Assembly: GCF_001275135.1 (NCBI RefSeq)
Contig: NZ_LFQU01000016.1
Location: 27,853 to 91,852 of the forward strand
DNA: 64,000 bases
Origin: Xylanibacter rarus
GTDB taxonomy: Bacteria > Bacteroidota > Bacteroidia > Bacteroidales > Bacteroidaceae
Reading direction: 5' to 3'
Below are positions 7,334 to 39,446 of this stretch, one piece after another (positions within the stretch are counted from its first letter, which is position 1; each line of letters begins with the position of its first letter). A program made the translations under genes and the position numbers. The notes under the pieces are model-generated. The model worked only from the letters and a program-made list of their open reading frames with translations. It ran no database searches and was not told where the DNA came from.

Positions 7334-8296
7334 TTATTTTAGAACTAAAGACAAACATTTCCGCAGCATTCTGTTCTTTGTCAGTTTTCTTAATATAGTG
7401 TAACTGCGACTATATCTTTTATCCGGCAATGGGAACAGTCCGCAATCTTCAAGGCGTTTCAAGCGTGAGCTAAGCTGTTTAGAAGAACGTGTAAGCCTTA
7501 TAATGCTGAAGATGTAATCAATCGTAAGTTGTGAAACACGTCTTTGTAATGCCTGGCTGTCTGCGATTGGCAATTGTTCAGATAGTTCTTTCAAATGAAA
7601 TATAATGTGTTCTATGTCATTCAGGCGTTTTAGTATAAGTCGGGGATCTTTATCCTTTATCGAATCAGATGGTCGTTTCTTGTATGAATAGGCGACAATG
7701 TCTGTGCTGTAAACTTTTTCAGCACGTAGAAACAGTTGTGGGGTGAATTCTTCATCCGTATTCAATAAGCTTGGGTTGAAACGTAAGTCCAACAATATTT
7801 TTCGGTTAAATATATAACCCCATGCCGTGGCATGAAGATTGTTGTGACGCATATAGTGGGCACCATCCATAGGCTCCGGTATATAAAAAGATGATGTTTC
7901 CTTCTTTTTACCGGAAGAGTTGAACAGTACAATATCGGGTACGTTATATCTGACTATATCCAAACAATGTTCGTATGCATCAGGGATTAGTTTGTCTTCA
8001 CCATTTATAAATTGTATAAAGTTACCAGAGGCCATTCTTAAGCCAAGGTTTCTTGCTGAACTGACGCCGTTCTTTTTCTGTCTGACATATATTATTTCAT
8101 CGCGATATTTTTCTAAACAGTCAATTATCGAAACATCAGAACCGTCGTCGATAACGATTATTTCTTTCTCTTGTGTTCTAAGCGATAGGCCTGTGATGCT
8201 GTCTAGGCATTCAGTTATTTGTTTTACAGGCAGGTTTCTGCATGTAATAATAAAACTTACTAAGGGACTATTGCTGCTGTCAAAACTAGTATTCAT
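7334..8296 (-). CDS. Family 2 glycosyltransferase
   Basis: This 320-residue protein has a GT-A fold start: VSFIITCRN near residue 12, then IVIDDGSD and SARNLGLRMASG, the usual nucleotide-sugar-binding stretch. The position of the DxD-type metal motif reads NGED. The C-terminal third has no recognisable domain. Acceptor and sugar cannot be told from the sequence; a surface polysaccharide or glycan role is typical. The frame is open to 8389, but TAATTTTG of the promoter (plus strand CAAAATTA just upstream of the ATG) places the transcription start almost at the ATG at 8296, so I use that start. It is monocistronic and convergent with nqrF. Confidence 0.8.
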   Translation of the reverse strand: MNTSFDSSNSPLVSFIITCRNLPVKQITECLDSITGLSLRTQEKEIIVIDDGSDVSIIDCLEKYRDEIIYVRQKKNGVSSARNLGLRMASGNFIQFINGEDKLIPDAYEHCLDIVRYNVPDIVLFNSSGKKKETSSFYIPEPMDGAHYMRHNNLHATAWGYIFNRKILLDLRFNPSLLNTDEEFTPQLFLRAEKVYSTDIVAYSYKKRPSDSIKDKDPRLILKRLNDIEHIIFHLKELSEQLPIADSQALQRRVSQLTIDYIFSIIRLTRSSKQLSSRLKRLEDCGLFPLPDKRYSRSYTILRKLTKNRMLRKCLSLVLK

Positions 8297-8396
8297 AATT
8301 GCAAAATTAATGTTTAATTTGCAAATTTGCAACATTACAGATTGCTTAATAAGTATTTTTATTGCATATAATAATCTGTGTTTAGGCAAATGGTAG

Positions 8397-8990
8397 TATT
8401 ATATAATTTGCATTTTGTGTCTTAATCAAACAATGTCGTTTTTAGCGGGTTTAAGGCTGGTTAACATTGCTGTATGCAAAAATTAACTTACGGCGGATTT
8501 GCGTTAACACTTTTATTGCGTGTGCTCTAGCTTTGTTTTTGTTCGATAAGTAATGCCGATAGGACAGTTTCTGTTCGGTTTTTCTGTTTTTAGTAGGGAT
8601 GTTATCATTGATTTATGATTATTTCTACACAAAAACATATTGTCTTATAAGTCAAAACACATTGATTTGTGTTATGAAACATGCTTAATTAGCCGGTAAA
8701 AGGCGGTATATTATAGGTGCGTTTTTTATGTGTTCTTCAAGCGATATTATAAGTGCTTGATATTCAGGCTGTTATATCGGTGCTGTTTTTGCGTCTGTTT
8801 TGCAGAAAACTATAGCCAATATTGGAAATAATATGAAATATAAGGCTTGAATTTAACACAAATGAGATAATTTAACTGACATTAGGTTAATATACGTTTA
8901 CTTGACATACGGAATGTTTGCCGGTCTATTGCTATGTTTTTATTTGCATGGAATATCAGGTAATACATAAGTCAGTTTTTATTTGAAACG
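8397..8990. other. Long intergenic region upstream of pheT
   Basis: About 600 bp without a convincing gene. A weak hairpin lies at 8556-8584 (CCGA and ACAG arms pairing with CTGT and TCGG, followed by TTTTT), which might end a small transcript. No tRNA, known riboswitch or long repeat was recognised. Confidence 0.3.
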
Positions 8991-9022
8991 TTTGTATAAA
9001 TGATTTAAAATTAGTACTTTTG
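8991..9022 (+). promoter_or_regulatory. Bacteroidota promoter of pheT
   Basis: TTTG at 8991-8994 and TACTTTTG at 9015-9022 are separated by 20 bp and match the -33/-7 consensus closely. The expected transcript start is about 25-30 nt upstream of the pheT ATG. Confidence 0.8.
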
Positions 9023-9056
9023 CGTCCGATTAAAGGAAAGTATAAAACTAATTTCA

Positions 9057-24955: not shown

Positions 24956-25777
24956 ATGACAGGATATTTGGTTAACGACACCCGTAAGGTAACAACCCAT
25001 CGTTTTATTGAGATGAAGCAGCGTGGAGAAAAAATATCTATGCTGACATCTTATGATTTTACGACAGCAAGCATTGTAGACGGAGCCGGTATTGATGGAA
25101 TATTGATTGGTGACTCAGCTTCAAATGTTATGGCTGGTAACGGAACTACGTTGCCTATAACAATAGATCAGATGATTTATCATGCAAAATCTGTTGTACG
25201 CGGAGTTAGTCGTGCTTTAGTTGTATGCGACATGCCGTTCGGCAGTTATCAGGTTGACCGCAAGGAAGGCATAAAGAATGCTATCCGCATAATGAAGGAA
25301 AGCGGATGCGATGCTTTAAAGCTTGAAGGTGGTGCTGAAATTATAGACACGATAAAAGGTATACTTGATGCCGGAATTCCTGTAATGGGCCATCTCGGTC
25401 TGACACCACAGAGCATCAACAAGTTTGGCACTTATGCTGTACGTGCTAAAGATGATGCAGAGGCTAATAAATTGCTTTCAGATGCCAAGTTGCTTTCTGA
25501 GGCAGGGTGTTTTGCCTTGGTTCTTGAAAAGGTTCCATCTGTTTTAGCTACAGAAGTTTCAAAGGAAATTCATATACCTACAATTGGTATTGGTGCAGGA
25601 AATGGCACTGACGGTCAGATTCTTGTTGTTGATGACATGTTAGGTAAAACAAAAGGATTTAATCCTCGTTTCTTACGTAGATATGCAGATCTTAATAGCA
25701 TCATGACTGATGCAATAGGACAATACATCACTGACGTGAAAGATTGCTCCTTCCCGAATGAAAACGAATCTTATTAA
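24956..25777 (+). CDS. panB: 3-methyl-2-oxobutanoate hydroxymethyltransferase
   Basis: PanB makes ketopantoate from 2-oxoisovalerate and methylene-tetrahydrofolate, the first step of pantothenate synthesis. It has 273 residues. Family motifs are [26 protein letters not shown] (Mg-binding Asp), [17 protein letters not shown] and IGIGAG. panC and panD are not adjacent. Its stop overlaps the start of the MFS gene (TAATG), indicating translational coupling. Confidence 0.97.
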
Positions 25778-26958
25778 TGTACACACAAAATACTCCAGTA
25801 CATGTAAAGCTTTGGCATAAGGATTTTTGGCTAATGGCGGTAGCCAATTTGTTATTGACAGTTGCCGTTTATATCCAAATACCCTTATTGCCAATATGGA
25901 TGATAAAGGATGCCGGATTTTCGCCTGGTGTAGTAGCTGTATCATTAGGAATATTTGGCCTGGGAGTTTTTTCTCTTGGCTTTTTTTGTTCCTATCTTGT
26001 GCAGAAGTATCGCAGAAATCTTGTATGTATCAGATCGATTTGGGTATTGGTCATATGTTTTTGCGCACTTTACTACATACAGCGTGGGCATGTATTTCAG
26101 ATAGAGGGATACATACTGATTCCTGTACTTCGGTTTATTCAGGGAGCCGCCTTTGGCTTAGCTCAGATGGTATTGTCCAGTACATTAATAATTGATACAT
26201 GCGAGTCTTTCCAACGTACAGAAGCAAATCATTCTTCTGCTTGGTTTTCCAGATTGGCATTATCTGTCGGACCATTAATATCGATATTACTCATGCCAAT
26301 GTTGAGCGTTAGCACTATTACTTTAATTTCTGCTGTATTGTGCTTATTGTCAACGTTTTTGATATTATCGGTGAAGTTTCCGTTCAGAGCACCTGAAGAT
26401 GTGATATGTAAGGTTTCATTAGATAGATTCTTTCTCCCTCAAGGCAAATGGCTGTTTCTAAATCTTTCATTGGTTGCCGTTGTCGTAGGGTTGTTTCTAT
26501 CCGCAGAACATACGTCCACTTTTTACGCCATGCTGATGGCGGGATTTATTCTTGCTATGTTGTCGCAGCGTTTTGTGTTCGTAAATGCAGAATTAAAGAG
26601 TGAGGTTGTCACTGGAATATTGCTGATGATGGCAGCGTGCCTGATGTATTTTTCGGGTGACAGGAATGCGATTAATTTAATTTCACCAACATTGTTGGGA
26701 TGTGGAATTGGCATAATTGGAGCACGTTTTCTTTTGTTCTTTCTGAAGTTAAGCCTTCATTGTCAGCGTGGAACGTCGCAAAGCACGTTTTTCTTGTCAT
26801 GGGAATTTGGTATTTCCTTAGGAATATTTTTGGGATATTATTTTTTCTATAATGACATTAGTGCTATGTACATTGTGGCATTGACAATATTGTGTATGGC
26901 CATGCTGATGTATCTGCTGTTTACGCATACTTGGTATATTAAAAATAAGAACAGATAA
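25777..26958 (+). CDS. MFS transporter
   Basis: A 393-residue protein with about 12 hydrophobic segments and major-facilitator traits (first helix WLMAVANLLLTVAVYIQIPLLPIW, and LRFIQGAAFGLAQM at helix 4-5). It starts within the panB stop codon, so the two are translated from one mRNA. Substrate is unknown; the coupling to panB hints at a link with pantothenate metabolism but is not proof. A terminator follows. Confidence 0.85.
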   Translation: MYTQNTPVHVKLWHKDFWLMAVANLLLTVAVYIQIPLLPIWMIKDAGFSPGVVAVSLGIFGLGVFSLGFFCSYLVQKYRRNLVCIRSIWVLVICFCALYYIQRGHVFQIEGYILIPVLRFIQGAAFGLAQMVLSSTLIIDTCESFQRTEANHSSAWFSRLALSVGPLISILLMPMLSVSTITLISAVLCLLSTFLILSVKFPFRAPEDVICKVSLDRFFLPQGKWLFLNLSLVAVVVGLFLSAEHTSTFYAMLMAGFILAMLSQRFVFVNAELKSEVVTGILLMMAACLMYFSGDRNAINLISPTLLGCGIGIIGARFLLFFLKLSLHCQRGTSQSTFFLSWEFGISLGIFLGYYFFYNDISAMYIVALTILCMAMLMYLLFTHTWYIKNKNR

Positions 26959-27068: not shown

Positions 27069-27119
27069 AAAGCCATTTGGTCAAAAAAAATATAATAATA
27101 TTTGTTGATTTAAAAATAT

Positions 27120-27137
27120 GTTCGTATATTTGCGAAC
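27120..27137 (+). promoter_or_regulatory. Predicted ArsR operator 1 overlapping the arsR promoter
   Basis: GTTCGT-ATAT-TTGCGAAC is an imperfect palindrome flanked by further AT symmetry (AAATAT on the left, AATATTT on the right). It contains the -7 element TATATTTG (27125-27132), so a bound repressor would block transcription of arsR. The same pattern recurs at 27505 and 29382. Confidence 0.7.
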
Positions 27138-27150
27138 AATATTTGATTAT

Positions 27151-27480
27151 ATGGATGAAAAAAGGGATTATACAATAAAGCAGGAAAGACTTGCCAGATT
27201 TGCAAAAGCATTGGGCCATCCGGCACGTATTGCCATAATGAATTTCTTGGCAAAGCAAAAAACTTGCTATTTTGGTGACATTAATGAAGAGCTTCCTATT
27301 GCAAAGGCTACTGTTTCTCAGCATCTAAAGGAACTTAAAGATGCCGGTCTGATACAGGGTGAGGTAGAGGCTCCTAAAGTGAAATATTGTATTAATAATG
27401 AGAATTGGAATTTGGCTAAAGCCTTATTCTCAGAATTCTTTGGGCAATGCATATGTAAAGCAGGAGGGTGTTGCGACTGA
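27151..27480 (+). CDS. arsR: ArsR/SmtB-family metalloregulator
   Basis: A 109-residue winged-helix repressor from the ATG at 27151; the upstream frame from 27118 would begin before the promoter. The family core is ALGHPARIAIMNFLAK and KATVSQHLKELKDAGLI. A Cys lies at the third helix (QKTCYFGD), and a C-terminal cluster CICKAGGCC could bind As(III) or another soft metal, a layout unlike the classic ELCVCDL sensor. It heads the ars operon and has an operator over its promoter, so autoregulation is expected. Confidence 0.9.
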   Translation: MDEKRDYTIKQERLARFAKALGHPARIAIMNFLAKQKTCYFGDINEELPIAKATVSQHLKELKDAGLIQGEVEAPKVKYCINNENWNLAKALFSEFFGQCICKAGGCCD

Positions 27481-27504
27481 CAACCTTCTCTTTTTATGTC
27501 TTAT

Positions 27505-27522
27505 GTTCGTTGTTTTGCGAAT
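27505..27522 (+). promoter_or_regulatory. Predicted ArsR operator 2 between arsR and arsE
   Basis: GTTCGT-TGTT-TTGCGAAT repeats operator 1 with identical half-site spacing. No perfect -7 element overlaps it, although TTGTTTTG is close. It may give a second control point for the genes after arsR. Confidence 0.55.
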
Positions 27523-27548
27523 AACGTTTAACTAATAAATATTGTAAA

Positions 27549-27779
27549 ATGGAAATTAAAGTTTTAGGTACTGGATGTGCAAATTGTAGAGCACTTTATT
27601 CTGCGGTAGAGCAGGTTGTTAATGAGTTAGGCTTAAAAGCTGATTTAGTGAAAGAGGAGGATTTGATGAAAATAATGGAATATAACGTCATGAGTCTTCC
27701 TGCTTTGGTTGTTGATGGAAAAGTTGTAGCCAAAGGACGTATAACTAAAGATGAGATACGCACAATTTTGACAAAATAA
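27549..27779 (+). CDS. arsE: Thioredoxin-like small redox protein (ArsE-type)
   Basis: A 76-residue protein of the redox-active disulfide protein 2 type: MEIKVLGTGCANCRAL carries a CANC active site, and SLPALVVDGKVVAKG is the typical cis-Pro region. In Bacteroides a homologue is encoded as arsE together with arsF and arsG. It probably passes electrons to ArsF or ArsG. It lies 68 bp after arsR and 13 bp before arsF. Confidence 0.82.
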   Translation: MEIKVLGTGCANCRALYSAVEQVVNELGLKADLVKEEDLMKIMEYNVMSLPALVVDGKVVAKGRITKDEIRTILTK

Positions 27780-27792
27780 GAATATTGAAATT

Positions 27793-28197
27793 ATGAAGAA
27801 ATTCGTGTTGCTTTCATTATTGTGCATGTTCTTGTCTACAGGATGGGCTTTTGCACAAACCGGCAAGTATGTTGAGGTTATTTATTTTCATGGCAAACAG
27901 CGATGTCCGACATGTAGAGCTATTGAAAAATACACCAAAGAAGTTGTGTATAACGATTTTGCCAAGTTTGTCAAGAGCGGCAAAGTACGTTTCAAAGAGG
28001 TTGATATTTCTACACCACAAGGCGAAAAGATAGCCGATAAATATCGTGTCAGCTGGTCTTCGTTATATGTAAACGGATGGAATAACGGAAAAGAAAAAAG
28101 GAACGACCTGACACGTATGGGTTTTAAGTATGCCAGAAATAATACGGCACAATTTAAAACCGAGCTTAAGAAAAAGATTAATCAGTTGTTGAAATAG
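27793..28197 (+). CDS. arsF: ArsF-family exported thioredoxin-fold protein
   Basis: 134 residues with a cleavable signal peptide (to about residue 21, WAFAQ) and a thioredoxin-like motif HGKQRCPTCRAIEKY (CPTC near residue 37). It matches the family annotated as nitrophenyl compound nitroreductase subunit ArsF of the Bacteroides arsEFG set. Whether it reduces nitro-arsenicals here is inferred from that family. Operon position between arsE and arsG supports the name. Confidence 0.8.
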   Translation: MKKFVLLSLLCMFLSTGWAFAQTGKYVEVIYFHGKQRCPTCRAIEKYTKEVVYNDFAKFVKSGKVRFKEVDISTPQGEKIADKYRVSWSSLYVNGWNNGKEKRNDLTRMGFKYARNNTAQFKTELKKKINQLLK

Positions 28198-28206
28198 CAT
28201 TTACGT

Positions 28207-28920
28207 ATGGAATACTTGCAAAGCTTGCTTGATAGCAGCGAGATACCTGTTGTTACAGCATTTTTGCTTGGGCTGCTTACAGCTGTAAGTCCTTGCCCTC
28301 TTGCAACCAATATTACTGCAATAGGTTTTATCAGTAAAAATCTTGACAGCCGTAATCGCATATTCTTGAATGGTTTGTTATACACAGCCGGCCGTATGAT
28401 TGCGTATTCCGTCCTTGGCGCAATACTTATAGTGTTGCTTAGGCGTGGAGCCGACATGTTTTTTATACAAAAAGGTGTTAGCGAGTGGGGCGAGCTGCTT
28501 CTTGCTCCAGCATTGGTTCTAATCGGCTTGTTTATGCTTTTTAGCGACAAACTTCATTTGCCGAAATTTGGCTTCAGTGCCTCGGAAAGGACTGAAAGGC
28601 TGAAAGGAGCATGGGGCAGCCTTCTTCTTGGGATATTATTTGCTATGGCATTTTGTCCTACAAGTGGACTGTTTTATTTTGGTATGCTTATTCCTATGGC
28701 TGCTATGGAAGGTGAGGGCTATTTCCTGCCCGTTGTCTATGCCCTGGCTACAGGCTTGCCGGTCATGCTGGCGGCATGGGTATTAGCCTATAGTGTGTCC
28801 GGAATAGGAAAATTCTATAATAAAATGCAAGTCTTTCAGAAATGGTTCAGCCGTATAGTTGCAGTTGTGTTTATATTTGTCGGAATATATTATGGCTTGA
28901 TGATGTATAATTTGATATGA
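28207..28920 (+). CDS. arsG: ArsG-family CcdA/DsbD-like membrane protein
   Basis: A 237-residue polytopic protein with six hydrophobic segments. AVSPCPLATN (Cys near residue 38) and AFCPTSG (Cys near 151) are the paired membrane cysteines of CcdA/DsbD proteins, which carry electrons across the inner membrane. In databases this branch is named ArsG, an aromatic arsenical efflux permease, though electron transfer to exported ArsF fits the cysteines equally well. It overlaps arsC by 4 bp. Confidence 0.8.
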   Translation: MEYLQSLLDSSEIPVVTAFLLGLLTAVSPCPLATNITAIGFISKNLDSRNRIFLNGLLYTAGRMIAYSVLGAILIVLLRRGADMFFIQKGVSEWGELLLAPALVLIGLFMLFSDKLHLPKFGFSASERTERLKGAWGSLLLGILFAMAFCPTSGLFYFGMLIPMAAMEGEGYFLPVVYALATGLPVMLAAWVLAYSVSGIGKFYNKMQVFQKWFSRIVAVVFIFVGIYYGLMMYNLI

Positions 28921-29363
28921 AAATTTTGATATTGTGTACCGGAAACAGTTGCCGGAGTCAAATTGCGCATGGTTTCTTACAGTCGTTTGACGATAGTCTT
29001 TATGTACGTTCAGCCGGAACAAAGCCGGCTGAACAGGTAAACTCGAAAGCTGTGGCCGTAATGAAAGAGGCCGGAGTTGACATAAGTAGTCATATTCCTG
29101 TGAATGTGATGGAATATCTTGATGAGTATTGGGATTACGTCATAACAGTATGTTCCGATGCCGATGCAACATGTCCGGCATTTAAAGGCAGGGTGGGCAA
29201 GAGGCTGCATATCGGTTTTGATGATCCTTCAAGATTGTCGGGTGACGTAAATTTTATTATGACGGAATTTAGGAGAGTGCGCGACGATATTAAAAATGCC
29301 TTTGCCAGATTTTATCTGACAGAAATAAAAAAAGCGGAACAGCCCCGCTACGTGTGTGAATAG
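28917..29363 (+). CDS. arsC: Arsenate reductase, low-molecular-weight phosphatase type
   Basis: 148 residues of the LMW protein-tyrosine-phosphatase fold. The P-loop LCTGNSCRSQ carries the nucleophilic Cys and Arg; a second Cys pair occurs in ITVCSDADATCPAF, as in thioredoxin-coupled ArsC, and DDPSR is the catalytic Asp region. It would reduce arsenate to arsenite. It starts inside the arsG stop (ATGA). Confidence 0.92.
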   Translation: MKILILCTGNSCRSQIAHGFLQSFDDSLYVRSAGTKPAEQVNSKAVAVMKEAGVDISSHIPVNVMEYLDEYWDYVITVCSDADATCPAFKGRVGKRLHIGFDDPSRLSGDVNFIMTEFRRVRDDIKNAFARFYLTEIKKAEQPRYVCE

Positions 29364-29381
29364 TATTTTTTTATATTTTCT

Positions 29382-29399
29382 GTTCGTATTTTTACAAAC
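29382..29399 (+). promoter_or_regulatory. Predicted ArsR operator 3 upstream of arsP
   Basis: GTTCGT-ATTT-TTACAAAC differs from operator 1 at three of 18 positions and lies 18 nt before the arsP ATG. It could regulate a separate arsP transcript; no strong -7 element is visible at it. Confidence 0.5.
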
Positions 29400-29416
29400 A
29401 TAAAAGATGTGATATT

Positions 29417-30385
29417 ATGATACAAAGTTTTGCAGATTGGCTTGTGTATGATGTGTTTGGTCTTAATGCAGGTACGGCGTTGGGATCGTCAGTTAATTTC
29501 TTTTTTTATGATACGATTAAAATATTGCTGCTGTTGCTTCTGATTAGTATAATCATGGGCATTATTAATGCATATTTTCCAATAGAGCGTCTGCGCGAAT
29601 ATCTGGTTTCGCGTAAGTTATATGGCTTGCAGTATTTTTTCGCTTCGCTGTTTGGTGCAATAACACCATTCTGTTCCTGTTCGTCAATACCATTGTTTAT
29701 AGGCTTCGTAAAGGGCGGAATACCATTGGGAGTTACTTTTGCATATCTTATAACCTCACCATTGGTAAATGAGGTGGCTGTAGCAATGTTTATCGGAACA
29801 TTTGGCATAAGGATAACTGCCATATATGTAATAAGCGGCATTTTACTTGGAATGATTGGCGGTTACATTCTGGGAAAAATGAGATTGGAGCGTTATCTGA
29901 GCGATTGGGTAAGGCAGATTCAACTTAATTCCATCGCCGGTTCTAATGCATGGGAACGAGATAATACTCCGTTCATGCAGCGTTTGCCGATAATAGTAAA
30001 AGAATCGTTAGGTATAGTTAAGGGTGTGTTGCTTTATGTGGTAATAGGTATTGGCATTGGGGCTTTCATGCATGGTTATGTACCAGAAGGCTTTTTTGAA
30101 CAGTATATGTCAGAGACAAACTGGTTTGCTGTTCCTCTTTCTGTTCTGTTTGCAGTTCCCATGTATGCCAATGCAGCAGGAATAGTGCCTGTTATTGAGG
30201 TGTTTGTGGCAAAAGGCATTCCTGTGGGCACGGCTCTTGCTTTTATGATGGCAGTTGTGGGCTTGTCTTTGCCGGAAGCAACACTTCTTAAAAAAGTTAT
30301 GACATGGCGTCTCATCGGCATTTTCTTTGGGACAATAACGTTATTTATAATTATCTCCGGTTACTTGTTCAACATCATCTTGTGA
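29417..30385 (+). CDS. arsP: ArsP-like permease (UPF0718 family)
   Basis: A 322-residue polytopic permease with the family hallmark PFCSCSSIPLF near residue 92 and a second conserved half beginning with the MYANAAGIVP segment. Members include ArsP, which exports trivalent organoarsenicals, and other permeases of unknown substrate. Here it follows arsC by 53 bp behind a possible ArsR site, which supports an arsenic role. No arsB or acr3 is present in the window, so it may be the only exporter of this operon apart from ArsG. Confidence 0.8.
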   Translation: MIQSFADWLVYDVFGLNAGTALGSSVNFFFYDTIKILLLLLLISIIMGIINAYFPIERLREYLVSRKLYGLQYFFASLFGAITPFCSCSSIPLFIGFVKGGIPLGVTFAYLITSPLVNEVAVAMFIGTFGIRITAIYVISGILLGMIGGYILGKMRLERYLSDWVRQIQLNSIAGSNAWERDNTPFMQRLPIIVKESLGIVKGVLLYVVIGIGIGAFMHGYVPEGFFEQYMSETNWFAVPLSVLFAVPMYANAAGIVPVIEVFVAKGIPVGTALAFMMAVVGLSLPEATLLKKVMTWRLIGIFFGTITLFIIISGYLFNIIL

Positions 30386-31063: not shown

Positions 31064-31912
31064 ATGGACAAATTAATGAGCATTCCTGAGTTGACATTGA
31101 AATGCGAGGAAATCAGAAAACGTTTGTTAGAGGTCGTATATAAAGCCAAAGCCGGTCATATCGGCGGCGATCTCTCGTCTTTGAATGTATTGACAGCATT
31201 GTATATGCGTGTCATGAACGTAAACCCTGAGAATCCGAAAATGGAAGGGCGCGACCGTTTCATTATGAGCAAGGGTCACTGTGTGGAAGCACTTTATTGT
31301 GTGCTCGAGGCAAAAGGTTTCATAACAAAAGAACTTGTCGACACTTATGGTGATTATCTGTCTGTGTTGGCAGGTCATCCTACGGTTGAAGTCCCGGGTA
31401 TAGAATTTAACAGCGGTGCATTAGGTCACGGTCTTTCAATTGGTGTAGGTTGTGCCATTGCCGCAAAAATGGATAAGAAGCCTTATCGTACATTTGTACT
31501 TATGGGCGACGGCGAGCAGGGCGAAGGCTCAATATATGAGGCAGCCATGGCCGGAAGCAATTATAAGTTGGATAATCTTGTTGCAATGATAGACCGAAAC
31601 GGCTTGCAGATAAGTGACACAACTGAGAATGTGATGAAACTTGAGTCTCTTAACGAGCGCTGGAAGGCTTTCGGATGGGATGTATATGATGTTGACGGCA
31701 ACGATATTGAGGCTATTGTTAACTGCCTTGAATCGATAGATTATAACAACGGAAAGCCTCACATGGTTGTGCTTCATACAACAAAGGGCTTCCACGTTTC
31801 ATACATGGAAAATGTGCTGAAATGGCATCATGGCGTGCCTACGGCAGAGGAGTATGAGAAAGCTATCGCTGAGATTACTAACCGTATTGAAGAACTTAAA
31901 AAGAATTGTTAA
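31064..31912 (+). CDS. aptA: Transketolase N-terminal subunit (apulose-4-phosphate transketolase subunit A)
   Basis: This 282-residue protein holds the ThDP-pyrophosphate half of a transketolase: KAGHIGG near 29-35, GALGHGLSIG, and the GDG...N motif at 148-150 and N179 (MGDGEQGEG, IDRNG). The pyrimidine half is the next gene. Split transketolases have several roles; here the neighbours are an FGGY kinase and a fucose-isomerase-like protein, matching the transketolase pathway for D-apiose in which AptAB splits apulose 4-phosphate. Transketolase is certain; substrate is inferred from context. Confidence 0.88.
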   Translation: MDKLMSIPELTLKCEEIRKRLLEVVYKAKAGHIGGDLSSLNVLTALYMRVMNVNPENPKMEGRDRFIMSKGHCVEALYCVLEAKGFITKELVDTYGDYLSVLAGHPTVEVPGIEFNSGALGHGLSIGVGCAIAAKMDKKPYRTFVLMGDGEQGEGSIYEAAMAGSNYKLDNLVAMIDRNGLQISDTTENVMKLESLNERWKAFGWDVYDVDGNDIEAIVNCLESIDYNNGKPHMVVLHTTKGFHVSYMENVLKWHHGVPTAEEYEKAIAEITNRIEELKKNC

Positions 31913-31914
31913 CA

Positions 31915-32853
31915 ATGGAAATAAAAAGTGTTGCTTGCCGTAAAAGTTTTACCGATGCACTGGTTGAACTTGGTAAAAAAGATAAGAATATTGTAGCCGT
32001 AACGACCGATGCCCGTGGCTCGGTTACTCTGACTGACTTTGCAAAAGAATTGCCTGAGCAGTTTGTTGAGTGCGGTATTGCAGAGCAGGATGCTGTAGGC
32101 ATTTCTGCCGGTTTGGCTTCATGCGGAAAAAAAGTGTTCGTATGTGGTCCTGCATGCTTTTATGTAGCACGCAGTCTTGAGCAGGTAAAGGTTGACGTGG
32201 CTTATTCAGGCCAACCGGTTAAGATCCTGGGCGTAAGTGGTGGCGTTGCATATGGAGCTTTGGGCGCCACTCATCATAGTTTGCATGATATTGCTGTGCT
32301 GCGCACATTCCCCGGCATGCAGGTTGTACTTCCTTGCGATGCACGACAGACACGTAAACTTGTTGAGCAGCTTGTAGATTATCCTCATCCTGTTTATGTT
32401 CGCGTTGGCCGTAATGCTGTTCCTGATGTTTATGAAAATAATAATTTTGATTATCAGATTGGAAAATCTATACAGCTTCAGGATGGTAAGGACCTGACAA
32501 TTATTGCTACTGGTGAAACAGTTTGGCATGCTCTTCAGGCCGGAAAGCGCCTTGCAGAGGAGGGTATAAGCACTCGTGTCATCGACATGCATACTCTTAA
32601 ACCTGCTGATACTGAGGCTATAGTTAAGGCTGCACACGAGACTGGACGAATAATGACAGTAGAAGAGCACAGCATGTATGGTGGCTTGGGAGCAATTGTT
32701 GCAGAAACAGTGAGTCAGAATTGCCCTGTTCCTATGCGTATACTCGGTATTCCTGACGAAAACGCTATTCATGGCAAGCCATTGGAGATATTCCATTATT
32801 ATAAGTTAGATGCTGAAGGCATTTATGCTACAGCTAAAGACTTTTTGAAGTAA
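31915..32853 (+). CDS. aptB: Transketolase C-terminal subunit (apulose-4-phosphate transketolase subunit B)
   Basis: 312 residues from the ATG at 31915, 2 nt after the aptA stop. It has the pyrimidine-binding domain with the catalytic Glu57 in ECGIAEQDAVG and a C-terminal transketolase domain (VEEHSMYGGLGAIV). It forms one enzyme with the preceding subunit. Apulose 4-phosphate as substrate rests on operon context, not on residues I can see. Confidence 0.88.
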   Translation: MEIKSVACRKSFTDALVELGKKDKNIVAVTTDARGSVTLTDFAKELPEQFVECGIAEQDAVGISAGLASCGKKVFVCGPACFYVARSLEQVKVDVAYSGQPVKILGVSGGVAYGALGATHHSLHDIAVLRTFPGMQVVLPCDARQTRKLVEQLVDYPHPVYVRVGRNAVPDVYENNNFDYQIGKSIQLQDGKDLTIIATGETVWHALQAGKRLAEEGISTRVIDMHTLKPADTEAIVKAAHETGRIMTVEEHSMYGGLGAIVAETVSQNCPVPMRILGIPDENAIHGKPLEIFHYYKLDAEGIYATAKDFLK

Positions 32854-32884
32854 AAGCCTTTAGTAACTTATAGAAGGTTTTGAA

Positions 32885-34363
32885 ATGAGATATATTATAA
32901 CCGTTGATCAAAGTACGTCAGCCACAAAGGCAGTGCTCTTTAACGAGCATTGCCAGTTGGTCTGTCGTAAGAATGTTGCCCATAAGCAATATTATCCTCA
33001 GCCGGGATGGGTTGAGCATGATGCAGAGGAGATATATAATAATATGGTCGAGGCCATACGTGAGGTGGTTAAGACTGTAGATGATGCCGAAGCATCTTAT
33101 TCTTTGGCAATTACAAACCAGCGTGAAACGGCTGTGGTTTGGAACCGTTTTACTGGTAAGCCGGTATACAATGCCGTGGTTTGGCAGTGTCAGCGTGGAG
33201 CCGCTATATGCAATGAATTGAGAGAGCGTGGATATACAGACCTGATTCGTGAGCGTAGCGGACTGCTCATTGACCCATATTTTGCCGCTAGTGGTGTCAA
33301 ATGGATATTGGATAATGTTCAGGGAGCACGTCAGGCTGCAGATAATGGAGAACTTCTGATGGGTACGATTGACACATGGCTTGTGTGGAAACTGACAGGT
33401 GGCAAGGAGCATGTGACAGACTATACCAATGCGTCGCGTACTATGTTGTTTAATATCCATACATTAGACTGGGATGATGAACTCCTCAACTTGCTGACAA
33501 TACCCCGCAATATGATGGCAAAGCCTATGCCTTGCGATTCTGTGTTCGGTGAAACAACTGTAGAGGGAGTTTTTGATGAGCCTATTGTTATTGCCGGTAT
33601 GCTTGGCGATTCACATGGTGCTTTGGCTGGTCAGATGTGTTTTGAGGCTGGTATGGGTAAAGCAACATATGGAACAGGTTCGTCTGTTATGGTGAATATC
33701 GGCGAAAACGCTGTGGCTGCTCCCGAAGGTCTCGTAACTTCAGTTGGCTTTGCTGCAAAAGGCAAGATTTTCTATGCTTTTGAAGGAAATATTCATTGTA
33801 CGGGTGCGACAATCAAATGGATGACTGACAACCTGCATCTTATTGAAAGTCCTGCGGAGATAGAGAAGTTTGCTCTTGAAGTTCCGGATAACGGAGGAGT
33901 TTATATGGTACCGGCATTTGCAGGTCTCGGTGCTCCGTGGTGGAACTCTCAGGCAAAGGCTATGATATGTGGAATGACTTTGGCTACAGAGAAAGGACAT
34001 ATCTGTAGGGCTGCATTGGAGGCAATAGCCTATCAAATAAAAGATTTGATTGACCTGATGACAAAACAAGCCGGAATAACTTTAAAGGAGCTGCGTGTGG
34101 ACGGAGGACCAACAAAGAATCAACTTTTGATGCAATTTCAGGCAGATATGCTTGATGCATGCATCAATCGCTCTGATATAGAAGAGGCATCTGCAATGGG
34201 AGCTATGATTATGAATGGTCTGGCACGCAAGGTTTGGAAGGATATGGATGAGGTGGCTGCATTGCGCACATCTGACAATCGTATATTCCCGACCATGTCA
34301 CGTGACGAACGTGAACGCCTTTATGCAGGTTGGACAGAGGCCATACATACTGTTAATAGATAA
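32885..34363 (+). CDS. aplK: FGGY-family carbohydrate kinase (probable apulose kinase)
   Basis: A 492-residue sugar kinase of the glycerol kinase/xylulokinase fold. The ATP-binding start TVDQSTSATKAVLF, the substrate region ITNQRETAVVW, GTIDTWLVWKLTGG, and the C-terminal DGGPTKNQLLMQF are all present. It is closer to glycerol kinases than to xylulokinases in the NQRET motif. Placed 31 bp after aptB and 30 bp before the isomerase gene, it would phosphorylate apulose. Glycerol or another ketose is possible. Confidence 0.8.
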   Translation: MRYIITVDQSTSATKAVLFNEHCQLVCRKNVAHKQYYPQPGWVEHDAEEIYNNMVEAIREVVKTVDDAEASYSLAITNQRETAVVWNRFTGKPVYNAVVWQCQRGAAICNELRERGYTDLIRERSGLLIDPYFAASGVKWILDNVQGARQAADNGELLMGTIDTWLVWKLTGGKEHVTDYTNASRTMLFNIHTLDWDDELLNLLTIPRNMMAKPMPCDSVFGETTVEGVFDEPIVIAGMLGDSHGALAGQMCFEAGMGKATYGTGSSVMVNIGENAVAAPEGLVTSVGFAAKGKIFYAFEGNIHCTGATIKWMTDNLHLIESPAEIEKFALEVPDNGGVYMVPAFAGLGAPWWNSQAKAMICGMTLATEKGHICRAALEAIAYQIKDLIDLMTKQAGITLKELRVDGGPTKNQLLMQFQADMLDACINRSDIEEASAMGAMIMNGLARKVWKDMDEVAALRTSDNRIFPTMSRDERERLYAGWTEAIHTVNR

Positions 34364-34393
34364 TAAATCATAAATAATAAAGACGAAAACACT

Positions 34394-35824
34394 ATGAAGA
34401 AACAAGCTAAAACAGGAAAGGAAACGTTTGGACTGATTATCGGTACCCGTGCGTATTTCAACTCAGAGTTGGCTGTTGATGTACGTAAGACGTTGTTGGA
34501 AGAGTTAGATAAAGCCGGATACGGCTATGTTATATTGGATGAGCAGGACACTCCTACCGGTGGTTCTATGGAGACGGTTGAAGACGGCAAAAAATGTGCT
34601 GCGCTGTTCCGTGCTAACCGTGATGACATCGACGGAATAATTGTGTCTCTGCCTAACTTTGGCTTTGAAGTAGGAATAATCAATGCTATCAGTCGCGCAG
34701 AGTTGCATGTACCTGTTCTGGTGCAGGCTTGCGACGACCAAAACGACAAAGTTGATCTTGATAGCCGCCGTGATGCCTTCTGTGGAAAGATATCTGTTTG
34801 TAACAACCTGTATCAGTATGGAATACCGTTTACAGACACAACATTCCATACCTATTCTATACACAGCGACCTGCTGATGAAGGATATCAACAAGTTTGCT
34901 GCCATCTGCCGTGTTGTACGTAAACTTACTCATGCACGTATAGGCCAGATTGGTACACGTCCACTCGGATTTAACACATGTCGTGCAAGTGAGAAACTTC
35001 TCCAGGCAAGTGGTATAACTGTTGTGCCTGTAGACCTCAGTGAGATTCTTTTCAATGCAAGAAAAATAGATAATGAAGCATCTGCTTTGAAGGCAAAAAT
35101 GGAGGAGATAAGCCATTATGCAAAGGTACCAGAGGCTTATCAGGAAAAGTTGGCATTACAGGCTAAGTTCGGATTGGCAGTAGAAGAATGGATACAGACT
35201 AATGAGGTTGATGCAGCTGCAATTCAGTGTTGGGATTCTCTTGAGCAGAACTATGGATGCGCAGCATGCGTTACAATGAGTATGCTTGGCGAAAAGCTTA
35301 TTCCTTGTGCTTGTGAAACTGATATCGCCGGAGCGGTGTCTATGTATGCTCTGAGTCTTGCTTCAGGCAAACCGGCTGCATTGCTAGATTGGAATAACAA
35401 CTTTGCTGAAGACCGTAATAAATGTGTATGTACTCACTGTGGAAACTTCCCGAAGAGTTTTGTTAATAACGACCTTAAGCTTGGACCGCTTGGCGTTCTT
35501 GGCAGAACCTTGGGTAAGGTTAATACATTCGGTGCTGTGTATGGAAAATGCACTGAAGGAGATTTTACATACTTCCGCATCTCTACGGATGATACGCTCG
35601 GCTGTATAAAGAGTTATCTCGGAAAGGGAGAGCTTACAAATGATCCATATGGTATGGATGGATGTATAGCTGTCACCAAAGTGAACAATTTGCAGAAACT
35701 TATGAAGTTTATTTGCAAGAACGGCTTTGAACATCATGTGGCAATGGTTCGCACTGATGTAGTAGATATATTGAGTGAGGCCGTAGAAAATTATCTTGGT
35801 TGGGATATTTATGTTCATGAATAA
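34394..35824 (+). CDS. apiI: L-fucose/L-arabinose isomerase-like protein (probable D-apiose isomerase)
   Basis: A 476-residue protein of the fucose isomerase-like superfamily (LIIGTRAYFNSELA; QIGTRPLGFNTCRASE; CACETDIAGAVSMYAL with the metal-binding Glu and Asp; CTHCGNFPKSF). In the D-apiose pathway an isomerase of this superfamily converts apiose to apulose. It ends the four-gene operon and is followed by a terminator. Assignment to apiose rather than another aldose relies on the linked split transketolase and kinase. Confidence 0.78.
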   Translation: MKKQAKTGKETFGLIIGTRAYFNSELAVDVRKTLLEELDKAGYGYVILDEQDTPTGGSMETVEDGKKCAALFRANRDDIDGIIVSLPNFGFEVGIINAISRAELHVPVLVQACDDQNDKVDLDSRRDAFCGKISVCNNLYQYGIPFTDTTFHTYSIHSDLLMKDINKFAAICRVVRKLTHARIGQIGTRPLGFNTCRASEKLLQASGITVVPVDLSEILFNARKIDNEASALKAKMEEISHYAKVPEAYQEKLALQAKFGLAVEEWIQTNEVDAAAIQCWDSLEQNYGCAACVTMSMLGEKLIPCACETDIAGAVSMYALSLASGKPAALLDWNNNFAEDRNKCVCTHCGNFPKSFVNNDLKLGPLGVLGRTLGKVNTFGAVYGKCTEGDFTYFRISTDDTLGCIKSYLGKGELTNDPYGMDGCIAVTKVNNLQKLMKFICKNGFEHHVAMVRTDVVDILSEAVENYLGWDIYVHE

Positions 35825-35829
35825 ATAAT

Positions 35830-35870
35830 AAAAGTCTTGCTGTTATTTATAACTGCAAGACTTTTGTTTA
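35830..35870 (+). terminator. Terminator of the apiose-type operon
   Basis: AAAAGTCTTGC (35830-35840) pairs perfectly with GCAAGACTTTT (35855-35865), followed by a T-rich tail. Confidence 0.85.
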
Positions 35871-36262: not shown

Positions 36263-37939
36263 ATGTTTGAAGGACAGCCTAAAGGGCTTTATGCGTTAGC
36301 GCTTGCAAATACGGGCGAACGCTTCGGTTATTACACAATGCTTGCAATTTTTACATTATTCTTGCAGGCTAAGTTTGGCTTTACAGCCACAGTTACATCC
36401 AATATCTTTGCCGGATTCTTGGCATTGGTCTATTTCCTCCCGGTTGTAGGCGGTATATTGGCTGATAAATTTGGTTTCGGTAAGATGGTGACATCCGGAA
36501 TCGTAGTTATGTTTATCGGCTATATATGTCTGGCGATACCTACTGGCAATAATGCTGTAGGAATTGCTGCCATGGTAGGATCTTTATTCCTGATAGCCCT
36601 AGGTACCGGTCTTTTTAAAGGCAACTTGCAGGTAATGGTTGGTAATCTTTATGATGATCCAAAGTATTCTGCAAAACGTGATACAGCCTTCTCAATATTC
36701 TATATGGCAATTAATATTGGTGCACTTTTTGCACCTACAGCTGCTGAGAAGATCACAGACTGGTATATGAAAACCCATAATTATGTTTATAATGGTGATA
36801 TTCCTGCCCTTGCACATCAGTATCTTGATGGTACTCTTTCTGGAGAGGCTTTGACGAAGTTTATATCTTTGGCATCTTCTCAGAATGTTGCAACTGACGC
36901 TTCTTCTCTTACAAATTTTGCAAACGACTACATCAACGTGCTTTCACAGTCATATCACATGGGATTTGCTGTAGCATGTGTATCATTGATTATTTCTATG
37001 CTTATTTATGTTTTAGGCCGTAAGACATTTAAGCATGCAGATGTGAATGTTAAGCAGGAAGCAGAAAATAACGGCGAATCTTCAGTTCATGTTCAAGAAC
37101 TTACTCCTGCAGAGACAAAGTCACGTGTCGTAGCTCTTTGCTTAGTGTTTGCTGTTGTGATTTTCTTCTGGATGGCATTCCATCAGAATGGTCTTACACT
37201 TACGTTCTTTGCGCGTGACTATACGGCTGCAACAGCCACAGGACTTACACGTATTGGCTTTGACGTATGGAATCTGGTACTCATTGCAATAGCTGTTTAC
37301 GGAATATTTGCTATATTCCAGTCAAAGGAATCAAAAGGTAAAATCATTTCTACAATTGTTACTATAGTTTCACTTGTTGTGTTGTACTTTAATTACAACG
37401 CAATGGACGAGTCTATAAGTATTCTTCCTCAGAAGTTCCAGCAGTTTAATCCCTTCTTCGTTGTTGCACTTACTCCTGTTTCTATGGCTGTATTCAGCTA
37501 TTTGGCTAATAAGGGCAAGGAACCTTCTGCACCGCGTAAAATAGGTATAGGTATGTTTATCGCTGCTGTTGGTTTCATGATCATGGTTCTTGGTTCATTT
37601 GGACTTCCTGTTCCAGATGCACTTGCATCAACTACGGGTGATTATCGTGTAACTCCAAACCTCCTAATCGGCACATATCTTGTTCTTACATTTGCCGAGT
37701 TGTTCCTTTCTCCGATGGGTATCTCTTTTGTATCAAAGGTTGCTCCTCCAAAGTATAAGGGACTTATGATGGGCGGATGGTTTGCAGCAACAGCCATTGG
37801 TAACTATTTAGTTTCTATTATCGGTATGCTATGGGGCAGTCTGCCATTGTGGATCTTGTGGGGTATTCTTGTTGTACTCTGTTTAATATCTGCAGTGTTT
37901 ATCTTCTCTATAATGAAGCGTTTGGAGAAGGTATGCTAA
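36263..37939 (+). CDS. POT/PTR-family peptide transporter
   Basis: A 558-residue proton-coupled oligopeptide transporter. The N-terminal NTGERFGYY is the family ExxERFxYY-type proton/peptide motif; about 14 membrane segments follow, with FSIFYMAINIGALFAP as the PTR signature (near residue 150) and a periplasmic or cytoplasmic insert at about 170-230. It imports di- and tripeptides in known members. It has its own promoter and terminator, so it is a separate unit from the sugar operon. Confidence 0.92.
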   Translation: MFEGQPKGLYALALANTGERFGYYTMLAIFTLFLQAKFGFTATVTSNIFAGFLALVYFLPVVGGILADKFGFGKMVTSGIVVMFIGYICLAIPTGNNAVGIAAMVGSLFLIALGTGLFKGNLQVMVGNLYDDPKYSAKRDTAFSIFYMAINIGALFAPTAAEKITDWYMKTHNYVYNGDIPALAHQYLDGTLSGEALTKFISLASSQNVATDASSLTNFANDYINVLSQSYHMGFAVACVSLIISMLIYVLGRKTFKHADVNVKQEAENNGESSVHVQELTPAETKSRVVALCLVFAVVIFFWMAFHQNGLTLTFFARDYTAATATGLTRIGFDVWNLVLIAIAVYGIFAIFQSKESKGKIISTIVTIVSLVVLYFNYNAMDESISILPQKFQQFNPFFVVALTPVSMAVFSYLANKGKEPSAPRKIGIGMFIAAVGFMIMVLGSFGLPVPDALASTTGDYRVTPNLLIGTYLVLTFAELFLSPMGISFVSKVAPPKYKGLMMGGWFAATAIGNYLVSIIGMLWGSLPLWILWGILVVLCLISAVFIFSIMKRLEKVC

Positions 37940-37968
37940 TGCCTGAAAATAATTATATCAAATAGATA

Positions 37969-38012
37969 ACAACCGGATAGCATATAAAAGAAGCTATCCG
38001 GTTGTCGTATTT
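37969..38012 (+). terminator. Terminator after the POT transporter
   Basis: ACAACCGGATAGC (37969-37981) pairs perfectly with GCTATCCGGTTGT (37993-38005), followed by a T-rich stretch. Confidence 0.9.
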
Positions 38013-38048
38013 TTTGAACTAATCTATTTTTTACTATAAGTTTTTATT

Positions 38049-39446
38049 ATGAGGATAATTTTATATGCATTCTTATTTGTGCTTTTGGGCTTTCAAAAAA
38101 TATCTGCTGACACTTTTCGTTGTATAGAATCAGAGCGGATTAACAAGCGTGATTCGTTATTGTCCATTATTACAGGAGCAAAAATTTCAGACAATATAAT
38201 TAGTATCACAGATTTTGGGGCCATTGGAGATGGGGTTAGGAATGATAAGCCGGCTTTTGACAAAGCAATGCAAAGTGCAGCGAAGCAGGGTGGGGCTCAT
38301 ATTATAGTGCCCCCTGGAACATTCCTGCTTAAAGGACCCATACATTTTGTGAGTAATGTTTGTCTTGAACTAATGGATGGGGCTATTATAAAATTTGATT
38401 CTAATCCTAAATATTATCTTCCTCTTGTTAAAACAAGTTGGGAAGGCACATTCTTATATAATTACAGTCCGTTTATTTATGGATATAATCTTCATGATAT
38501 ATCAATCATTGGCAAAGGAAAAATAGATGGCAATGCCTCTTCAACGTTTGCAACATGGAAGTCAAAGCAGAAGGAAGGGCAGGCTCTCAGCCGTAAAATG
38601 AATCATGAAGAGATTCCCATTGAATTGCGTCGTTTTGGAAACGGTTTTTGGTTAAGACCACAGCTTATACAATTCTACAATTGTAAAAATATAACCTTAT
38701 CTGATGTGTTTATAACTAATTCGCCTTTTTGGTGTATTCATTTACTTAAGAGCGAGAATGTCATATGCTGTTCCCTTCGTTACGATGCAAAACTTGTGAA
38801 TAATGATGGTATCGATCCTGAGTGTTCACGAAATATTTTGATAGAGAATATTGAGTTTAATAATGGTGATGACAATATTGCAATAAAAAGTGGACGAGAC
38901 AATGACGGATGGGCATCAACTATGCCTTCTGAAAACATTATTATACGTAATTGCCGTTTTAAAGGTTTGCATGCTGTAGTGCTTGGCAGCGAAATGTCTT
39001 CAGGAGTTCAAAATATTTTTGTCGAGAATTGCACATATGGTGGTTATTGTAAACGTGGAATATATATTAAGACCAATCCTGATCGTGGTGGATTTATCAA
39101 AAATCTATATGTGAAGAATTGTAGGTTTGATGAAGTAGAAGACTTGTTCTATGTTACAAGTATGTATGCTGGCGAAGGACTTAATAATATTCATTATACA
39201 GATGTAAAGAATATTTATGTTGACAGTCTTTTTTGCCGTAAAGTAAGAAAGGCAGGACTAGTATTACAGGGTACGTCTCAGAAACCGATGTCAGATGTTA
39301 TTTTTAGCAATGTTGAAATTCAAGAGGTGGATAATGCTGTAAGTTTTGACAATACGTTGAACGTTGAGATGCGAAGTTGCCATATTGGTGGACGTGTTGG
39401 TGTACCGTCTCAGGCTTCATCTGCAGATAAACTATTTGTGAAATAG
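38049..39446 (+). CDS. GH28 pectinase (polygalacturonase-like)
   Basis: A 465-residue secreted protein: signal peptide to about residue 20, ITDFGAIGDGVRNDKPAFDKA start typical of parallel beta-helix pectinases, then catalytic Asp motifs NNDGIDPEC and NGDDNIAIKSG, and RGIYIKTN matching the RxK substrate motif. The usual GHG triad reads LHAVVLGSE, keeping the His but not the second Gly. It would cleave pectic galacturonan or a related rhamnogalacturonan in the periplasm. It lies alone between two terminators, 3.6 kb from the apiose-type operon end to start. Confidence 0.88.
   Translation: MRIILYAFLFVLLGFQKISADTFRCIESERINKRDSLLSIITGAKISDNIISITDFGAIGDGVRNDKPAFDKAMQSAAKQGGAHIIVPPGTFLLKGPIHFVSNVCLELMDGAIIKFDSNPKYYLPLVKTSWEGTFLYNYSPFIYGYNLHDISIIGKGKIDGNASSTFATWKSKQKEGQALSRKMNHEEIPIELRRFGNGFWLRPQLIQFYNCKNITLSDVFITNSPFWCIHLLKSENVICCSLRYDAKLVNNDGIDPECSRNILIENIEFNNGDDNIAIKSGRDNDGWASTMPSENIIIRNCRFKGLHAVVLGSEMSSGVQNIFVENCTYGGYCKRGIYIKTNPDRGGFIKNLYVKNCRFDEVEDLFYVTSMYAGEGLNNIHYTDVKNIYVDSLFCRKVRKAGLVLQGTSQKPMSDVIFSNVEIQEVDNAVSFDNTLNVEMRSCHIGGRVGVPSQASSADKLFVK

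Follow-up and report, generated by a model that had tools for sequence, protein, structure and literature searches.

What sugar is served by four plus-strand genes at positions 31064–35824 of a 64,000-nucleotide stretch of Xylanibacter rarus DNA (the window), which encode a split transketolase pair, a GlpK-like FGGY kinase and an enzyme with the fucose/arabinose isomerase fold? D-Apiose is a branched and rare sugar found in plant cell walls, and a first-pass annotation had read the locus as a probable isomerase-kinase-transketolase operon for its use. That these genes are adjacent and co-oriented was confirmed by the open reading frames and their Pfam matches (Table 1). The claim as a whole gained support from matches to AplK and AptAB, the isomerase match, the clade of the kinase and the ties of related operons to apiosidase and rhamnogalacturonan II (RG-II). 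Sequence and genomic context lend the D-apiose reading good support, and the four-gene unit is in all likelihood a D-apiose catabolic operon. The pathway itself is already known from other bacteria.

Table 1. Features of the four-gene unit and its downstream neighbours
Feature	Position	Strand	Basis
AptA-like apulose-4-phosphate transketolase, N-terminal (ThDP) subunit, 282 aa (predicted)	31064..31912	+	Transketolase_N 148 bits
AptB-like apulose-4-phosphate transketolase, C-terminal subunit, 312 aa (predicted)	31915..32853	+	Transket_pyr + Transketolase_C (Pfam)
AplK-type FGGY kinase (putative apulose kinase), 492 aa	32885..34363	+	FGGY_N/FGGY_C; clade; pocket residues
Candidate D-apiose isomerase (ApiI/ApsI-type), L-fucose/L-arabinose isomerase fold, 476 aa	34394..35824	+	Fucose_iso_C
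Intrinsic-terminator-like hairpin closing the four-gene unit	35827..35868	+	MFE -19.7 kcal/mol, z -6.25
POT-family (PTR2) transporter, downstream neighbour	36263..37939	+	Pfam PTR2
GH28 pectin hydrolase, downstream neighbour	38049..39446	+	Glyco_hydro_28

The two transketolase frames overlap or lie 2 bases apart, depending on the start codon (an alternative TTG start is found at 31906, besides 31915), and gaps of 31 and 30 bases precede the kinase and the isomerase gene, respectively. None of 200 shuffles was equally low in MFE as the hairpin after the last stop. The 678 bases 5′ of the operon hold no open reading frame of at least 100 aa, and the window, when scanned against Rfam and for tRNAs, yielded two tRNAs and nothing else. 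We followed orthologues of the N-terminal transketolase half, the kinase and the isomerase through 90 genomes of the same genus, a total inferred from 149 genomes in 60 genera; an isomerase orthologue had at least 74% identity. All three genes were present in 27 of these genomes and a partial set in just three (G033, G068, G074), we hence conclude that the grouping is not due to chance. The isomerase gene of G081 lies about 130 kb away from those of kinase and transketolase, and the operon genes are split over different contigs in G032, G036, G049, G063 and G072. For upstream genes of 580–600 aa in G031 and in G035, no domain hit was informative.

Both transketolase halves matched the E. coli SE15 proteins when compared with AptAB, as the first-pass annotation had suggested, with 43% identity to AptA for the N-terminal and 36% to AptB for the C-terminal half. 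A tree of 70 N-terminal halves (rows after thinning) placed that of the window among 50 from isomerase- or kinase-linked loci, with weak edge support (66/85).

We then compared operon carriage with that of apiosidase, scored as a PF13204 match above 300 bits (genus) or at E 1e-30 (phylum). The genus count excludes weak matches (G019; second copies in G000, G006, G052), and all sets were compiled by hand from per-genome match tables. Within the genus, apiosidase was present in 27/30 genomes with operon genes versus 7/60 without, and in 26/29 with the isomerase versus 8/61 (Fisher 1.5e-12). The isomerase also tracked GH106, the single pectin control family (28/29 versus 36/61, p 1.3e-4); among GH106-bearing genomes only, apiosidase was found in 25/28 with the isomerase versus 8/36 (6e-8). 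Phylum-wide the link was weak (5/18 versus 34/376, p 0.024). Seven same-genus genomes have apiosidase and no operon, and no apiosidase was found in the operon-bearing G068, G070 and G074, which are 63–84% complete. In G031, G009 and G086 the operon lies within 16 kb of a BT_1020-like/GH95/GH140 (rhamnogalacturonan-II) cluster; in the genome of the window, such a cluster is on another contig than the operon.

The isomerase matched Fucose_iso_C (PF02952) with 114 bits at a gathering cut-off of 29.3, and a fold search returned AraA and FucI, i.e., L-arabinose and L-fucose isomerases. A PDB sequence search gave no match at E 0.01. The protein keeps invariant metal-site-like residues, for which we presume the roles of their counterparts in AraA. 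It is 45% identical over 98% of its length to enzymes of Sodalis, Rahnella and Klebsiella that sit between aptB and aplK homologues, and whose identity as ApsI/ApiI is assigned from this position; in the comparison that the first-pass annotation had called for, the isomerase thereby matches an enterobacterial enzyme from the same cluster type. Among the best 80 named isomerase loci (546 confirmed), 52 carry a split transketolase together with a GlpK/AplK-like kinase, and 24 have no split transketolase in the stretch examined.

The isomerase family is mixed, with members also placed in other sugar loci. Phylum-wide, 14 of 18 isomerase loci are without a split transketolase and none of the 18 has a GlpK/AplK-like kinase, in the stretch examined. 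Some family loci adjoin a class II aldolase gene (Aldolase_II), one of them (L143) also an FGGY kinase of another kind. The isomerase tree was thinned to 83 of 104 rows. Relatives at 45–50% identity whose loci contain class II aldolase or other FGGY genes, the L-arabinose/L-fucose isomerase type of fold and the presence of several rare sugars in RG-II all speak for another aldose as substrate (D-arabinose, L-arabinose, L-fucose, L-galactose or another RG-II sugar), whose ketose phosphate would pass to the transketolase. However, the kinase and the transketolase resemble those of the apiose set, the isomerase co-occurs with the apiosidase family, and the genome has its own AraA-AraB-AraD, RhaA-RhaB and XylA-XylB genes elsewhere. 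L-Arabinose, L-rhamnose and D-xylose were rejected on account of these dedicated genes, and we regard another aldose in general as improbable.

By overall similarity, the kinase resembles glycerol kinase. It passes the cut-offs of the NCBIfam glycerol kinase models TIGR01311 (605.1 bits, cut-off 590.35) and NF000756, and NCBIfam naming would mislabel it accordingly; three other Bacteroidales operon kinases straddle the TIGR01311 cut-off (570.9, 582.7 and 598.2 bits). It is 46% identical to E. coli GlpK (479 bits) and 43–47% to stand-alone Bacteroidales GlpKs, compared with 40% (361 bits) to E. coli AplK. Each of the 29 relatives of solved structure that were listed at E 1e-30 bears the name glycerol kinase or glycerol kinase-like. 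Moreover, it is the sole GlpK-like kinase found in its genome, where the other three FGGY kinases are accounted for by the Ara, Rha and Xyl gene sets. These observations would fit the use of glycerol or dihydroxyacetone, with an ordinary GlpK and incidental neighbours.

Tree and pocket residues, in contrast, put the kinase with AplK. In a rooted tree it falls inside a clade of operon kinases with E. coli AplK (support 96/91), the root being less sure than this figure because the outgroup branches are long. Kinase trees were thinned to 69 of 89 rows, the rooted version to 65 of 89 plus five outgroup rows. The pocket reads D242-S243-H244 and S266-S267 where GlpK has D-Q-Q and C-F, and R83-E84-W103 of GlpK are retained; the roles of these residues in the GlpK pocket are those we presume. 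All 15 stand-alone GlpKs examined have D-Q-Q and C-F, which the window kinase lacks, and the AplK-type signature was found in 74/74 full-length context-linked kinases and 0/15 stand-alone GlpKs, read from aligned columns for open reading frames of >450 aa and >330 bits. Ten further kinase-type frames in isomerase loci were left out of this count: five truncated ones have the same GDSH and GTGSS motifs, and neither motif occurs in the truncated L132 or in the remote FGGY kinases L053, L054, L130 and L135 (24–27% identity).

We hence consider the kinase to be supported as AplK-type by clade membership and pocket residues. The first-pass annotation had named closer similarity of isomerase and kinase to enzymes of another sugar as evidence against apiose; in overall identity the kinase is nearer to GlpK, whereas clade and pocket side with AplK. 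Two genomes (G103, G127) hold the operon kinase alongside a distinct GlpK with GlpK residues, the genome of the window gave no match to a MIP/GlpF glycerol facilitator, and glycerol use requires neither isomerase nor transketolase. Glycerol was rejected on the missing GlpF, the kinase clade and the pocket residues, and is a very unlikely substrate of this locus. Sulfoquinovose breakdown of the sulfo-transketolase type, suggested by the split transketolase and by SftI (NF048012) as sole NCBIfam match of the isomerase, deserves hardly any credence and was rejected on the SftI score (123.4 bits, far under the cut-off of 700), no sulfoquinovosidase or sulfonate gene being evident by eye among the window frames and an FGGY kinase not being known to have a place in that pathway.

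For D-apiose, we propose steps that follow the chemistry of the ApiI/AplK/AptAB route. A GH140-type apiosidase whose gene lies elsewhere in the genome (G000:C32) would free D-apiose from rhamnogalacturonan II or other apiosides, and the sugar would enter the cell through a carrier. The isomerase would convert the branched aldose D-apiose into the ketose D-apulose. The kinase would then phosphorylate one of the two branch-carbon CH2OH groups, at the presumably targeted glycerol-like end of apulose, to give apulose 4-phosphate. Finally, the two-chain transketolase would transfer the C1-C2 ketol unit to glyceraldehyde 3-phosphate, yielding dihydroxyacetone phosphate and xylulose 5-phosphate, two common phosphates of central metabolism.

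Carter et al. 2018 is said to be the original enzyme paper on the non-oxidative D-apiose pathway of Enterobacterales. This pathway (apsI/apiI, aplK, aptA, aptB; MetaCyc PWY-8089) has the same four enzymes and the same A-B order of the split transketolase; kinase and isomerase follow in this order in the window and in the reverse order in Enterobacterales. Unlike there, no ribose-type ABC importer or sugar-binding regulator is evident adjacent to the window operon. On the GlpK model, the window kinase scores 605 bits versus 495 for its E. coli and 480 for its Sodalis counterpart. PMC13001218 names an apiose cluster of E. coli ST131/ST1193 (in SE15, ECSF_RS02670-02715) and reports growth on D-apiose for strains that share the sequence type and carry the cluster. 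Homologues of AplK and AptAB are common to this cluster and the window, but the cluster contains two SDR oxidoreductases and lacks an isomerase of the window type. Isomerase-transketolase-transketolase-'glycerol kinase' operons of Listeria and Monoglobus have the same four functions and kinases with AplK-type pocket serines, but their isomerases are only 27–28% identical to that of the window. Nearby genes are PTS in Listeria and ABC in Monoglobus, and an apiosidase-domain gene follows immediately 3′ of the Monoglobus operon. An oxidative route in a Rhodobacteraceae strain, described in PMC11747546, acts on the same substrate with different enzymes (apiose dehydrogenase, apionate oxidoisomerase), none of which was recognised in the window operon.

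In the window kinase, Q246 and F270 of GlpK are replaced by serines, and it belongs to a separate clade. The balance tips, in our view, towards a deep sister clade of glycerol kinase that consists of apulose kinases, marked by Q246→S and F270→S (GlpK numbering) and present in Bacteroidota, Pseudomonadota, Verrucomicrobiota, Planctomycetota, Chloroflexota, Acidobacteriota, Balneolota and Bacillota. If so, many 'glycerol kinase' genes of plant-wall degraders, including the only one of this genome, would serve the use of apiose, a trait that would then be far commoner among pectin degraders than annotation shows. The two-residue signature would offer a simple means of telling apulose kinases from glycerol kinases, a distinction that the curated family models applied here fail to make. 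Within the paper library searched, no paper had glycerol kinase and apiose together. RG-II of plant walls is, according to the literature, linked by borate through its apiose, and free apiose was detected during growth of B. thetaiotaomicron on an RG-II fragment (PMC7939467). Carriers of the downstream pathway in the genus would indicate which members could eat apiose.

The four-gene unit holds no carrier gene. Upstream, beyond arsenic-type genes, lies an MFS_1 gene (25777–26958). The GH28 protein gave 312 bits with its nearest galacturonidase model, NF049892, below the cut-off of 800. Downstream of the operon, the PTR2 and GH28 genes recur in G004, G053 and G078 with 57–59% and 68–70% identity, respectively, the PTR2 gene with different outer flanks.

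Four plus-strand genes at window positions 31064 to 35824 encode the two chains of a split transketolase, an FGGY kinase and an isomerase, with coordinates and gene types as the first-pass annotation had given them. Gaps of 31 and 30 bases precede the kinase gene and the isomerase gene, respectively, and the transketolase halves are 2 bases apart or overlap, depending on the start codon. The terminator-like hairpin closing the operon folds far better than shuffled sequences and separates it from the POT and GH28 genes. No ORF of at least 100 aa was found in the 678 bases 5' of the operon.

Features of the window and of fetched loci (L) with relatives of its isomerase
Sequence	Position	Strand	Feature	Remark
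Window	27118–30385		arsenic-type island, 5' of operon	ArsR-family regulator, DsbD-like membrane protein, low-molecular-weight phosphatase/arsenate-reductase-like protein, ArsP_1 permease
Window	27793		thioredoxin-like ORF	in arsenic-type island, by eye only
Window	within 31064–35824	+	transketolase N-terminal chain	282 aa
Window	within 31064–35824	+	transketolase C-terminal chain	312 aa
Window	within 31064–35824	+	FGGY kinase	492 aa
Window	within 31064–35824	+	isomerase	476 aa; L-fucose isomerase C-terminal domain
Window	35827–35868		terminator-like hairpin	end of operon
Window	36263–39446		POT transporter, GH28	3' of operon
Window	59256–59678		ORF before transposase	perhaps its truncated N-terminal portion (by eye)
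Window	59644–60636		ISL3-type transposase gene
Window	60925–61075		tRNA-Gly, tRNA-Thr	adjoin transposase gene
L053 (G096)	274–3069		isomerase, non-GlpK FGGY kinase	isomerase 37% identical
L054 (G111)	7459–11390		isomerase, non-GlpK FGGY kinase	isomerase 37% identical; class II FBP-aldolase-type gene also present
L076, L077	~6001–7416		isomerase
L112, L113, L133, L138, L148	~2900–7400 of each locus		isomerase	near apiosidase-like gene
L143	2243–7407		isomerase relative	class II aldolase gene, FGGY kinase
L200	5781–13001		isomerase relative	class II aldolase gene, sodium:solute symporter, transketolase-like ORF

The annotation's reading of these genes as a D-apiose catabolic operon is supported by matches to AplK, AptA and AptB, by the kinase clade and by co-occurrence with apiosidases, and on this sequence evidence the operon very probably serves D-apiose breakdown. 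From homology and context, the isomerase would most likely convert D-apiose to D-apulose, the kinase would phosphorylate D-apulose to apulose 4-phosphate, and the two-chain transketolase would yield DHAP and xylulose 5-phosphate from apulose 4-phosphate and glyceraldehyde 3-phosphate. The pathway itself is already known, and the operon is an additional case of it.

The apiose cluster described for E. coli SE15 (ST131) contains the apulose kinase gene aplK (ECSF_RS02700) and the split transketolase genes aptA and aptB (ECSF_RS02710, 02715); cluster-bearing ST131 and STc14 strains, unlike K-12, are reported to grow on D-apiose, and the isomerase gene apsI is described as known in Pectobacterium and lacking in Escherichia (PMC13001218). 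The window proteins are 40% (AplK), 43% (AptA) and 36% (AptB) identical to those of SE15. The window isomerase matched 14 plasmid records, the top three of which (Sodalis, Klebsiella and Rahnella; 427–432 bits vs at most 150 for the others) were 45% identical over 98% of its length. In these three the isomerase gene is flanked by a transketolase pair on one side and a kinase gene on the other. Since the transporter, regulator and kinase types are those of the E. coli cluster, this is, judged by gene position, the putative enterobacterial D-apiose isomerase. A 94% identical enterobacterial isomerase adjoins apparent ABC importer and regulator genes in Escherichia sp. ESNIH1 (L076) and Pseudescherichia vulneris (L077), with no operon-type transketolase or kinase within 6 kb. 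Compared with the known pathway, the window operon differs in gene order, has no adjacent ABC importer, and its kinase is more GlpK-like.

Indeed, the window kinase passes the NCBIfam glycerol kinase cut-off (605 vs 590 bits) and shares 46% identity with E. coli GlpK vs 40% with AplK, as would be expected of an ordinary glycerol kinase. Because GlpK also scores well above AplK in a same-program comparison, we hold the apiose reading slightly less firmly and its glycerol rival slightly more, and still consider the latter very improbable. We aligned 74 full-length kinases from loci bearing the isomerase and/or split transketolase with 15 stand-alone GlpKs (14 from Bacteroidales and E. coli K-12). 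All 74 carry D-S-[H/Q/E] at GlpK positions 245–247 and serine at 270; all 15 stand-alone enzymes carry D-Q-Q and C-F there, and R83, E84 and W103 are conserved in all 89. These residues of GlpK line the glycerol site, and the kinase signature is a useful by-product of the analysis. Ten further kinase-type ORFs did not pass the length or score thresholds; of these, five truncated ORFs share the signature, and neither motif is present in another truncated ORF or in four remote FGGY kinases. With other FGGY kinases as a long-branched outgroup, the operon kinases, including the window kinase and E. coli AplK, form one clade (96/91) sister to GlpK (95/92) in the rooted tree, and two genomes (G103, G127) carry one kinase of each kind. 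The window's genome gave no match to the glycerol facilitator family (MIP/GlpF), and the window kinase is its only GlpK-like kinase. Its other three FGGY kinases match ribulokinase beside AraA and AraD, rhamnulokinase beside RhaA and xylulokinase beside XylA (rhamnulokinase and xylulokinase below equivalog cut-offs, AraD below equivalog and above subfamily cut-off). A kinase of the glycerol kinase line would suit apulose phosphorylation, because one carbon in the apulose tail bears two CH2OH groups and so resembles the middle carbon of glycerol.

BT1012 is described as a beta-apiosidase of rhamnogalacturonan II (RG-II) (PMC7939467). Among 90 same-genus genomes, 29 had the isomerase orthologue, 34 a strong PF13204 apiosidase and 26 both (Fisher 1.5e-12, a value overstated, like the others for this genus, because related genomes are not independent). 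Apiosidases occurred in 27 of 30 genomes with any operon gene vs 7 of 60 others; the seven apiosidase genomes with no operon and the three operon genomes with no apiosidase count against the apiose reading. The pectin control family GH106, present in 64 of the 90, tracks the isomerase too (28/29 vs 36/61, p 1.3e-4); within these 64 the isomerase-apiosidase link persists (25/28 vs 8/36, 6e-8). Operon and apiosidase lie at most 16 kb apart on one contig in G031, G009 and G086. By Pfam, the genes near the G031 operon encode a 589-aa protein with no informative domain, a DUF5123/DUF4957 protein, a multidomain hydrolase resembling the RG-II enzyme BT_1020, a protein with weak resemblance to esterases, a GH95 and the apiosidase. 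The hydrolase, the esterase-like protein, the GH95 and the apiosidase have homologues in G009 and G086, and the same four-gene cluster, 55–78% identical, is on contig C32 of the window's genome. In G081, kinase and transketolase are about 20 kb from the apiosidase and the isomerase is not there. Also against the apiose reading, the operon genes are non-adjacent or on different contigs in some genomes.

Across the phylum the isomerase-apiosidase link is weak, which counts against the apiose reading: of 395 evenly drawn Bacteroidota genomes, 19 had the isomerase family and 40 the apiosidase, and with the window's genome removed, 5 of 394 had both (p 0.024). The fetched stretch held a split transketolase in 4 of 18 phylum-wide isomerase loci and a GlpK/AplK-like kinase in none; belonging to the isomerase family should therefore not be taken as a sign of apiose use outside close relatives. 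A scan of named-species genomes with the isomerase alignment confirmed at least 546 loci. Among the best 80, which we analyzed, the fetched stretch contained a split transketolase gene in 56 and none in 24, transketolase plus GlpK/AplK-like kinase in 52, and an apiosidase-like gene in 7 (two with transketolase). Kinase-bearing loci came from Pseudomonadota, Verrucomicrobiota, Planctomycetota, Chloroflexota, Acidobacteriota, Balneolota and Bacteroidota. Listeria and Monoglobus have the same four functions as the window operon, but their isomerase is remote (27–28% identity); in Monoglobus the next gene has a Pfam Apiosidase domain (60 bits).

In the fetched stretch of five loci from Chloroflexota and Trueperaceae (L112, L113, L133, L138, L148), neither split transketolase nor GlpK/AplK-like kinase was present; these genes may be located elsewhere, or apulose may have another fate. 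L053 and L054 probably represent an isomerase-kinase-aldolase route for another sugar, and L143 and L200 are, from their gene content, candidates for isomerase relatives serving another sugar route. A 492-aa isomerase paralogue (28–29% identity) occurs in four same-genus genomes (G015, G030, G042 and G045; L066, L059, L057 and L058), with no operon-type transketolase or kinase in the fetched stretch. The POT and GH28 genes 3' of the operon are also found in three close relatives, where other flanks differ; with the operon, the six genes appear as if moving as a block.
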